Assembly: GCF_013337685.1 (NCBI RefSeq)
Contig: NZ_SUQN01000003.1
Span: forward strand, 124,001-188,000
DNA: 64,000 bases
Direction of reading: 5' to 3'
Source of the DNA: Citrobacter gillenii
GTDB taxonomy: Bacteria > Pseudomonadota > Gammaproteobacteria > Enterobacterales > Enterobacteriaceae
In this document: positions 16,580 through 26,249 of the stretch, one piece after another
Layout: each line of letters begins with the position of its first letter
How positions within the stretch are numbered: position 1 is the first letter of the stretch
Program-made: the position numbers and the translations under genes
Notes under the pieces: model-generated
Told to the model about the DNA's origin: nothing
Seen by the model: only the letters and a program-made list of their open reading frames with translations
Database searches by the model: none

Positions 16580-16612
16580 TAAAGCATATCGCATTCGCCT
16601 GGAGCCTGATTG

Positions 16613-16693
16613 ATGACTTACATTGTTCGTTTTAACGGTCTACTACTACTAAACGCATCTTCGTTGCGCGGTAGACTGGTGAACGACATTTAG
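16613..16693 (+). CDS. leuL: LeuL, leu operon leader peptide
   Basis: A 26-residue leader peptide (MTYIVRFNGLLLLNA then a diverged tail) preceded by GGAG at 16601-16604. Codons 10-13 (16640-16651) are four consecutive CTA leucine codons, the rare codon used as the control run in enteric leu attenuation. Ribosome stalling there under leucyl-tRNA shortage would favour the antiterminator. Start-proximal residues match the family, while the tail after the leucines does not. Confidence 0.93.
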   Translation: MTYIVRFNGLLLLNASSLRGRLVNDI

Positions 16694-16719
16694 CATTACG
16701 TCAGCTCCAGTTAAGACAA

Positions 16720-16747
16720 AAACCCGCGCCGCTGCGCGGGTTTTTTT
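16720..16747 (+). terminator. leu attenuator
   Basis: AACCCGCGC, a four-base loop and GCGCGGGTT followed by a run of T, about 27 bp past the leuL stop and 42 bp before leuA. This is the terminator arm of the leucine attenuator. Confidence 0.93.
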
Positions 16748-22757: not shown

Positions 22758-22785
22758 ATCTTTCCTTTTAAGCGCAGCGGAAACG

Positions 22786-23027
22786 AAAAAAGCCAGCAGA
22801 TAATACCTGCTGGCGCGGCGATTAACACCAATACTCAGTCACACATGATGTCTGCAATTCCCAATTCAGAGGTCAGTCTTGCAACTCCCACTGCATCAGT
22901 TCATCGAGCATCTTTAAGCGCTGCGGCGCACTCAGGCAAGCCAACCAGGACAAACGCGCTGTCGAGGTAAAGTACTTTAAATAGAACTGACGCATAGATG
23001 ACCCCTTCGTTGTCTCATCGCTTCATC
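22786..23027 (-). ncRNA. sgrS: SgrS, glucose-phosphate stress small RNA
   Basis: Hfq-dependent regulatory RNA that pairs with ptsG and manX mRNAs when phosphosugars build up. The 5' GATGAAGC (23020-23027), the conserved pairing region with CATGTGTGACTGAGTATTGG (about 22827-22847) and a final hairpin CCAGCAGGTA/TATCTGCTGG followed by six U (22786-22791) are all visible. The interval lies between setA and the divergent sgrR, its activator. The roughly 242-nt length is inferred from the E. coli ends, and the 5' region before sgrT is a little longer than I recall for E. coli. Confidence 0.93.
22873..22995 (-). CDS. sgrT: SgrT, PtsG-inhibiting small protein
   Basis: A 40-codon frame inside the 5' half of sgrS, starting MRQFYLKYFTSTARLSWL and ending WELQD, preceded by an AAGGGG ribosome site. 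It is homologous to SgrT, which blocks glucose uptake through PtsG. The E. coli protein has 43 residues as I remember it; the core MRQFY, YFT, LSWL and LDELMQW are shared or similar while the end is shorter. The coding region does not reach the ptsG pairing region. Confidence 0.9.
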   Translation of the reverse strand: MRQFYLKYFTSTARLSWLACLSAPQRLKMLDELMQWELQD

Positions 23028-24750: not shown

Positions 24751-24781
24751 CGCCTTGTTCAGTAGGCGTAATCGGTGAAGA

Positions 24782-24863
24782 CAGTTTGAACACGGACAGC
24801 GCGGAAAAACCGGAGCGTACACGTAGTACGTGAGGATTTTGAGCACTGCCCAGGTTCAAACTG
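24782..24863. repeat. 82-bp imperfect palindromic element
   Basis: Perfect 10-bp ends CAGTTTGAAC (24782-24791) and GTTCAAACTG (24854-24863) close a long imperfect palindrome. Its centre, 24812-24832, read on the minus strand, matches the centre of the element downstream of the riboswitch at 20 of 21 positions. It carries no open frame of note. It resembles short non-coding palindromic elements seen in enteric intergenic DNA, but I cannot name the family. Confidence 0.75.
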
Positions 24864-24934
24864 GCAAACAAGATAGCCTAATGGACAAGGCTCTTGATTG
24901 CCGCATAGCAACAAAATCATTACACTAACGCCGT

Positions 24935-25096
24935 TCTCAACGGGGTGCCAATAAAAAACATACACAAAATCATTCATGATGCATCAAGGCGGCAAGCAAA
25001 CGCAGCCAACGCAGAGGCAGCTTGAAGGATGAAGTGTATGAGGCTGAGAGATACCCGTCGAACCTGATCCGGATAATGCCGGCGAAGGGATTTGAG
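24935..25096 (+). promoter_or_regulatory. TPP riboswitch (THI element) with long P3 arm
   Basis: Thiamine pyrophosphate-sensing leader of thiBPQ. Visible parts are the P1 arms TCTCAA/TTTGAG (24935-24940 and 25091-25096), the P2 strand CGGGGT (24941-24946) with TACCCG (25052-25057), the J3-2 signature GGCTGAGA (25042-25049) and the pyrophosphate-side ACCTGATCCGGATAATGCC to GCGAAGGGA (25062-25090). Between GCC (24947-24949) and GGC (25042-25044) lie about 92 nt instead of the short P3 loop usual here; CATACAC (24959-24965) and GTGTATG (25034-25040) can extend P3. TPP binding would repress thiBPQ. Confidence 0.93.
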
Positions 25097-25123
25097 GCTG
25101 TAGCTCAAGTCCTTTGCCACCTA

Positions 25124-25247
25124 ACTCGTCATACTTCAAGCTGCAGATGCGTTGGCTTTCCTCGCTCACCCCAGTCACGTACTACCTGTACGCTCCCGGG
25201 GATACGCTACGTCGCCGCCTTCCTGCAACTCGAATTATTGAGAGTTT
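25124..25247. repeat. Palindromic repeat element in the thiB leader
   Basis: An element of about 120 bp with related inverted ends (near CTTCAAGCTGCAG and CTGCAACTCGAATT) and a central CCCCAGTCACGTACTACC to TGTACGCTCCCGGGGAT palindrome. The family is common between genes in Enterobacterales, as I remember it. It sits between the TPP aptamer and the thiB ribosome site, so it forms part of the expression platform or leader. Confidence 0.75.
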
Positions 25248-25265
25248 TACTTTATGAGGTGCAAA

Positions 25266-26249
25266 GTGTTTAAAAAATGTCTTCCGCTTTTACTGCTGTG
25301 CGCAGCGCCTGCCTTCGCCAAACCCGTTCTGACCGTCTATACCTACGACTCGTTCGCCGCCGACTGGGGCCCCGGCCCAACCATCAAAAAAGCCTTTGAA
25401 GCCGACTGCAACTGCGAGCTAAAGCTGGTGGCGCTGGAAGATGGCGTCTCGCTGCTTAATCGCCTGCGCATGGAAGGAAAAAACAGTAAAGCCGACGTCG
25501 TGCTCGGACTGGATAACAACCTGCTCGACGCGGCAATGCAGACCAAACTGTTTGCCAAAAGCGGCGTGGCGAGCGATGCCATCAACGTTCCTGGCGGCTG
25601 GAAAAACGACACCTTTGTACCGTTTGATTACGGCTATTTCGCCTTTGTGTATGACAAAAACAAGCTGAAAAACCCACCGAAGAGCCTGAAAGAACTGGTC
25701 GAAAGCGACCAGAAATGGCGCGTAATTTATCAGGACCCACGCACCAGCACGCCGGGTCTGGGACTGCTGCTGTGGATGCAGAAAGTGTACGGCGATAAAG
25801 CGCCGGAAGCCTGGCAGAAACTGGCGGCTAAAACCGTCACCGTCACCAAGGGCTGGAGTGAAGCCTACGGTCTGTTCCTGAAAGGTGAAAGCGATCTGGT
25901 GCTGAGCTATACCACCTCTCCGGCGTATCACATCATCGAAGAGAAGAAAGATAACTACGCCGCCGCCAATTTTAGCGAGGGACACTATTTGCAGGTGGAG
26001 GTCGCCGCACGTACCGCCGCCAGCAAACAACCCGAACTGGCGGAAAAATTCCTGACATTTACGGTTTCTCCGGCGTTCCAGAACGCAATCCCCACCGGCA
26101 ACTGGATGTATCCGGTAACCCAGGTCACGCTTCCTCCTGGCATTGCACAACTGGAAAAACCGTCCACCGCGCTGGAATTCACCCCACAACAGGTGGCAAC
26201 TCAACGTCAGACATGGATTAACGCATGGCAACGCGCCGTCAGCCGTTAA
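25266..26249 (+). CDS. thiB: ThiB (TbpA), periplasmic thiamine-binding protein
   Basis: Binding protein of the thiamine/TPP ABC importer. I choose the GTG at 25266-25268, preceded at 5 nt by TGAGGT, giving 327 residues that start MFKKCLPLLLLC; an ATG four codons upstream lies within that ribosome site. Residues 1-18 form a signal peptide ending AFA. The rest is a family 1 solute-binding fold (VLTVYTYDSFAADWGPG). The end overlaps thiP by 25 nt. Expression is under the TPP riboswitch. Confidence 0.96.
   Translation: MFKKCLPLLLLCAAPAFAKPVLTVYTYDSFAADWGPGPTIKKAFEADCNCELKLVALEDGVSLLNRLRMEGKNSKADVVLGLDNNLLDAAMQTKLFAKSGVASDAINVPGGWKNDTFVPFDYGYFAFVYDKNKLKNPPKSLKELVESDQKWRVIYQDPRTSTPGLGLLLWMQKVYGDKAPEAWQKLAAKTVTVTKGWSEAYGLFLKGESDLVLSYTTSPAYHIIEEKKDNYAAANFSEGHYLQVEVAARTAASKQPELAEKFLTFTVSPAFQNAIPTGNWMYPVTQVTLPPGIAQLEKPSTALEFTPQQVATQRQTWINAWQRAVSR

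Follow-up and report, generated by a model that had tools for sequence, protein, structure and literature searches.

A thiBPQ TPP riboswitch of Citrobacter gillenii whose long P3 arm is an internally deleted ERIC repeat

Published data on thiamin pyrophosphate (TPP) riboswitches upstream of thiB come from two other species. In the sections of PMC11487190 that deal with its timing, the riboswitch of Escherichia coli tbpA (thiB) is thought to sense TPP in the interval between completion of the aptamer and formation of the anti-P1 pairing. The thiBPQ riboswitch of Klebsiella pneumoniae, Kp01, is reported to be thiamine-responsive (PMC12632268); the main text of that paper discusses extended P3 arms and does not contain the word "ERIC". 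ERIC (also RU-1) elements are characterised in the relevant passages of PMC2229807 by a TA and a terminal repeat at each end, features shared by the element described below, in which the repeat measures 7 nt. The ERIC2 primer is published and is printed together with ERIC1R in 199 papers of the literature searched.

The window analysed here, a stretch of 64,000 nucleotides from Citrobacter gillenii, contains a match to the Rfam TPP family RF00059 at 24931–25108 on the forward strand (cmscan, 60.9 bits, E = 1.7e-9; gathering score 54.3). The core motifs CTGAGA, ACCC, GAACCTGAT and GGATAAT and helices P1, P2, P4 and P5 are present, as judged from the Rfam alignment and from a comparison of the core in 91 loci. 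The genes downstream of the aptamer are thiB, thiP and thiQ, all of which exceed the cut-offs of their NCBIfam equivalogs (for thiB, TIGR01276 with 597.8 bits, cut-off 317.15). The initial annotation had described a TPP riboswitch here, with all conserved aptamer parts intact, and the Rfam match confirms that reading.

In the aptamer, the P1 5′ strand CTCAA (24936–24940) pairs with TTGAG (25092–25096), and the P3 5′ strand GCC (24947–24949) faces GGC (25042–25044). Direct reading of the window gives exactly 92 nt between the two P3 strands, in agreement with the earlier estimate, and Rfam places the GCC strand at the same position; its alignment carries a 90-nt local insertion at P3. The 3′ part of the core runs from CTGAGA to GGGATTTGAGG (25044–25097) and comprises the 3′ strand of P2, P4, P5 and the 3′ strand of P1. 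A whole-genome scan also returns a second, weaker RF00059 placement (25004–25107, 45.8 bits, below the cut-off), the 5′ half of which lies within the insert, and we prefer the 60.9-bit placement for the thiB aptamer. The remaining two TPP matches in the same genome span 97 and 123 nt.

The expression platform includes a combined anti-P1 and anti-SD strand, CTCAAGTCCTTTGCCACC (25104–25121), assigned from the conserved string CTCAA..TCCTTTGCC and from the anti-P1 mechanism set out for E. coli tbpA in the corresponding part of PMC11487190. The SD strand GAGGTGCAAAG occupies 25256–25266, and its motif AGGTGCAAAGTG is identical in 91 of 91 loci. By analogy with the GUG start given there for tbpA, thiB likely starts at GTG 25266 and extends to 26249; the mechanical list of open reading frames has ATG 25254 instead. 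All of these features lie on the forward strand. A promoter scan returned no sites. Elsewhere in the window, SgrS RNA (22785–23027, reverse strand) and a leucine operon leader (16599–16747, forward strand) are ordinary Rfam matches.

The length of the P3 arm is explained by an ERIC mobile repeat, to judge from its sequence an internally deleted one, that inserted at this place. The element (24961–25038, forward strand) has TA at both ends (24961–24962 and 25037–25038), and its terminal inverted repeat consists of CATACAC (24959–24965) and GTGTATG (25034–25040). A search of the same genome with window positions 24900–25260 gave 60 matches, the query itself included (in a first look, 40 of 74 candidates were scored). 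The insert (24959–25041) matches a copy on contig 4 over its whole length (87% identity over 83 nt), and in alignment both of its ends match the ends of many own-genome copies of about 125 bp, the centre of which is missing from the arm of the window. The same centre is retained in the 135–140-nt arms of relatives. A member of the same repeat family (L104) matches the ERIC2 primer at all but one of 22 positions; the exact primer occurs in none of the 172 loci fetched. At 78 bp, with its centre deleted, element 1 lacks the full length of about 127 bp and the ERIC-primer region, and we therefore file it as an ERIC deletion derivative. Its copies elsewhere in the genome rule out a chance sequence in P3.

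A second ERIC (25122–25249, reverse strand) lies opposite in orientation to element 1, between the anti-SD and SD strands and thus within the hairpin loop that masks the ribosome-binding site. This element, identified from own-genome copies and from a primer match, is of full length (128 bp), has TA at both ends and agrees without mismatch with 16 nt of the ERIC2 primer (within 25161–25178, reverse strand). By chance, the primer pattern that we searched for would be expected 0.01 times in the window, and it is present once. Element 2 is found at the same site in 6 of 17 Citrobacter genomes, two of which (G010 and G001) have about 75 additional nucleotides within it, and a near-empty site, CCACCCTACTTTTTGAGG, is seen in G011 (L125). 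Insertions of about 75–77 nt nested in ERICs are a wider observation, made in P3 arms, in element 2 and in one copy elsewhere in this genome (L038, L051, L106, L123, L131). A third dispersed repeat of about 115 bp lies at approximately 24764–24894, between the sgrR stop codon and the riboswitch; it has matches of 73–91% at eight further sites of the genome.

Long P3 arms are common among relatives. P3 measures 95–214 nt in 8 of 17 Citrobacter genomes, is reduced to a 38–42-nt remnant in 6 and has 15–17 nt in 3, so that the description of the arm as unusually long does not hold for this genus; the arm is well above the 16 nt of E. coli E69 (L061), a length in line with the short hairpin that the initial annotation gives for E. 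coli thiB. Thus, 14 of the 17 genomes have an ERIC or its remnant in P3, and only 5 have both a P3 ERIC and element 2. In the Klebsiella group (Klebsiella and Raoultella), 18 of 20 genomes show stretches of 39–261 nt with ERIC-like ends, the other two having 7 and 10 nt. We also examined the 80 named thiB loci nearest to this ThiB (out of 355), 79 of which have a readable aptamer; the exception, L100, lacks the aptamer core. The stretch from GGGGTGC to CTGAGA is 9–22 nt long in 63 of these 79 and 41–261 nt long in the 16 that have an ERIC arm. Across relatives, P3 is empty or holds a remnant, a deleted or full ERIC, a nested insertion or a tandem, including a nested 77-nt insertion in C. braakii and C. 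amalonaticus and a tandem double ERIC of 261 nt in R. ornithinolytica.

A search with part of the leader of G412 found two Klebsiella records, both from K. pneumoniae and both with a full ERIC in a 136-nt arm; in one, an annotated thiB follows as the next gene. Both are filed as plasmids, one being chromosome-sized at 5.4 Mb. The published P3 of K. pneumoniae thiC is found exactly in G412 alone among the 20 Klebsiella-group genomes. A pattern joining the ERIC end to CTGAGA hits 13 of 392 genomes of the family, all 13 at thiB and none at thiC or thiM, but the pattern is strict and misses the arm of the window itself, so absence of ERIC arms outside thiB is only weakly indicated. For E. coli, megablast found no place covering 80% of the leader in any of 5426 genomes and a match of any kind in only one, in a mode that is also blind to ordinary leaders with a short P3. 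One record titled Chryseobacterium (L080) contains a thiB locus of enterobacterial type whose P3 arm is a full ERIC; since the same arm is present in G271 (L150), this record may be mislabelled or contaminated.

Position and sequence suggest that the P3 ERICs probably stem from one old insertion, with later loss, decay and exchange of leaders as the simplest account. The element has an identical place and orientation in all aligned arms, the tandem arm of Raoultella not being part of that alignment. Of 17 full-length arms, 14 have the centre CATAGATAACTATG unchanged and 3 differ from it by one base, whereas all 20 own-genome ERIC copies depart from it by two bases or more, the comparison being with ERICs of this genome only. 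Because the arm in the window has lost this centre, its relationship to the others is judged by site, orientation, flanks and relatives. In most Klebsiella, and likewise in Enterobacter kpr-6, the A-rich left flank reads TAATAAACA; most Citrobacter have TAAATAAAAA(A)CA, and Raoultella differs. In a rapidly built tree of 91 thiB genes, which does not distinguish gain from loss and in which 7 rows were chosen by their match to the ERIC pattern and inflate the share of carriers, presence of the insert changes at least 12 times, also between sister species (79 nt in K. oxytoca versus 10 nt in K. grimontii). An exact pre-insertion P3 site was not seen among the relatives compared.

The aptamer core and platform around the insert are almost invariant. 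All 27 carriers have one of three near-identical 3′ cores, and the letters of core and platform are about equally conserved in the 27 carriers and 64 non-carriers. The distance from CTGAGA to the SD is 86–93 nt in 86 of the 91 loci, the other five all having element 2. Covariation in the terminal helix of the ERIC is weak, with the sixth pair being A-T in 12, G-C in 12, G-T in 8 and an A-C mismatch in 5 of 37 cases. Long ERIC arms in P3 are probably tolerated, because the K. pneumoniae records carry the full form and the published K. pneumoniae thiBPQ riboswitch responds to thiamine.

Standard annotation deals unevenly with such leaders. At the gathering score, Rfam found 26 of 26 leaders with a P3 of at most 99 nt and none of 14 with at least 135 nt, in a test of two sets of 20 leaders with 13 found in each. 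K. pneumoniae thiB is among the 14 missed, three of which are near-copies from this species (L170–L172); L127, L134, L136 and L137 come from genomes of named loci and are also counted among the 79 named leaders. With relaxed E-values, all five missed leaders that we tried gave 46.2–51.1 bits over 103–130 nt and, by position, started inside the ERIC. In the alignment of L136, the ERIC's own GGGGTG takes the place of the aptamer 5′ core; the ERIC sequence ACTGGGGTG resembles that core and leads the Rfam model to place its 5′ half wrongly (L136:326–454). The longest ERIC arms are therefore easily missed by a standard TPP search. Additionally, ERIC-bearing arms draw sub-threshold matches from RF02818, Vibrio RNA AS5 (L127:388–511, E = 9.9e-10; L170:154–277, E = 3e-7), and this family may for that reason itself represent an ERIC-like repeat.

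When folded in isolation, the arm of the window has a predicted energy of −25.2 kcal/mol (z = −3.1 relative to shuffled sequences) with both the terminal helix and GCC/GGC formed. The initial annotation had proposed that CATACAC and GTGTATG close an extended helix. This helix is indeed predicted, but the A-rich flank AATAAAAAA (24950–24958, forward strand) forms a putative 9-nt bulge that parts it from the P3 base, and pairing of that base is no better than in shuffled arms (probability 0.55, shuffled arms averaging 0.57). Among 27 isolated arms, the P3 base pairs clearly better than in shuffled versions in just two, both from Raoultella, for which 1 and 2 of 100 shuffles reached as high a value. 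We then calculated for 12 leaders the cost of forcing P1, P2, P3 and P5. This amounts to 9.3–11.4 kcal/mol for short-arm leaders (n = 3), 10.0–14.2 kcal/mol for ERIC-arm leaders without element 2 (n = 3) and 11.7 kcal/mol for a remnant-arm leader with element 2 (L131), which suggests that an ERIC in P3 alone is neutral for folding. As to the earlier suggestion that the insert could alter folding or create a new regulatory arm, the P3 element by itself looks neutral in energy; a competing fold is predicted only with the second, inverted ERIC, which the initial annotation did not mention.

Taken together, we consider it very likely that this is a thiBPQ TPP riboswitch whose P3 was invaded long ago by an ERIC and whose SD-hiding hairpin took up a second, inverted ERIC, the arms being mostly neutral passengers. 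The sequences show the identity of both elements, their insertion points, the occurrence of this arm across several genera, how it was remodelled there and the conservation of core and platform; that the riboswitch of this strain works, that all P3 ERICs go back to one insertion and that the arms are mostly neutral passengers is what we infer. The miniature transposable element would have entered P3 and, because ERIC RNA folds back on itself, a longer hairpin would have taken the place of the P3 loop, leaving the binding core and the spacing between aptamer and platform untouched. TPP would close P1 as before, the anti-SD would pair with the SD, and thiB would be repressed. Since P3 is presumably finished before the aptamer is complete, its extra length should not shift the interval from aptamer completion to anti-P1 formation. 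In the lineage of this window, the inverted ERIC would have entered the loop of the SD-hiding hairpin, lengthening a hairpin from inside once more.

A neutral role is doubtful in the five leaders that have both ERICs, because in all five the free minimum-energy fold is predicted to lie 23.6–40.1 kcal/mol below the forced aptamer, against only 11.7 kcal/mol in L131. This free fold gives 62–104 bases of P3 partners beyond the arm, chiefly in the platform loop; the SD pairs with the 5′ strand of the aptamer in four of the five leaders. The inverted pair of this window could therefore compete with the aptamer, and one might see in it a functional third state, in which the P3 arm pairs with element 2, P3 is dismantled and TPP is sensed only during transcription, before element 2 has been made. 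The better sensing of TPP by E. coli tbpA during than after transcription, as reported in that section of PMC11487190, is in line with such a state. However, complementarity comes free with any inverted ERIC. In a 5 × 5 table, element 1 pairs as well with element 2 of other genomes as with its own, and with 17 other own-genome ERICs in the orientation of element 2 it reaches −58.1 to −111.6 kcal/mol, compared with −65.4 kcal/mol for its own partner (−35.1 to −52.4 kcal/mol for same-orientation ERICs). Own pairs being no stronger than swapped ones, we reject selection for the pairing, and unless an experiment shows otherwise the pairing is a by-product of orientation, since it is not specific to its own partners. 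Furthermore, both hairpins would form locally first, so that the duplex may never be reached, and only 5 of 17 Citrobacter genomes have both elements. We regard a functional third state as rather unlikely, and it is likewise unlikely that pairing of the opposite ERICs dismantles P3, leaves the finished mRNA blind to TPP and makes sensing a one-time event in transcription.

The ERIC arm might instead serve as an entry site for RNase E or RNase III, with P3 then also governing the stability of thiB mRNA. ERICs in Yersinia transcripts expose an RNase E site in an orientation-dependent manner, according to the review sections of PMC2229807 and PMC10969869, and tbpA mRNA levels depend on TPP in the data presented in PMC11487190. 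An arm that is lost, shortened or doubled in close relatives is nevertheless unlike a conserved site, and this role seems quite improbable to us. Lastly, the fall of Rfam scores below the cut-off at arms of 135 nt or more could be taken as a sign of a decayed, non-functional riboswitch, to which we give almost no credence: carriers keep core and platform about as well as non-carriers, for which reason we reject decay, the poor score of the alignment shown (L136) is due to wrong placement of the 5′ half, and Kp01 is reported to be active (PMC12632268, in the part concerned). A known riboswitch and a known repeat are here combined in an unexpected place, a combination that we did not find in print; titles and abstract openings in the literature searched, which covered few subscription papers, revealed no ERIC within a TPP riboswitch. 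The locus places a mobile element within an RNA domain that binds a metabolite, and the relatives provide a natural length series for testing the role of P3.

Among comparable known systems, E. coli tbpA shares with the locus the gene, the aptamer core, the anti-P1/anti-SD platform and the GUG start (as described in PMC11487190); the E. coli leader differs in its P3 of 16 nt (L047, L061) and in a platform loop without element 2. Kp01 probably resembles the window in having an ERIC in P3, as inferred from the two other K. pneumoniae records, and by the same records it would differ in carrying the full 136-nt ERIC and no element 2. If Kp01 has the arm of these records, a working ERIC-bearing aptamer has already been shown. 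The K. pneumoniae thiC riboswitch Kp04 and plant TPP riboswitches likewise combine a long P3 with an intact core, but the P3 extension of Kp04 is given as 24 nt in PMC12632268. In sequence, terminal inverted repeat, TA at both ends and hairpin RNA, the elements of the window resemble the ERIC, IRU or RU-1 elements portrayed in PMC2229807, and the copy in P3 differs by its place inside a ligand-binding aptamer. The BOX element of the pneumococcal trp leader is similarly a small bacterial repeat in a riboswitch leader; by the account in PMC3049150 it sits between two T boxes, whereas element 1 lies within an arm of the aptamer itself.
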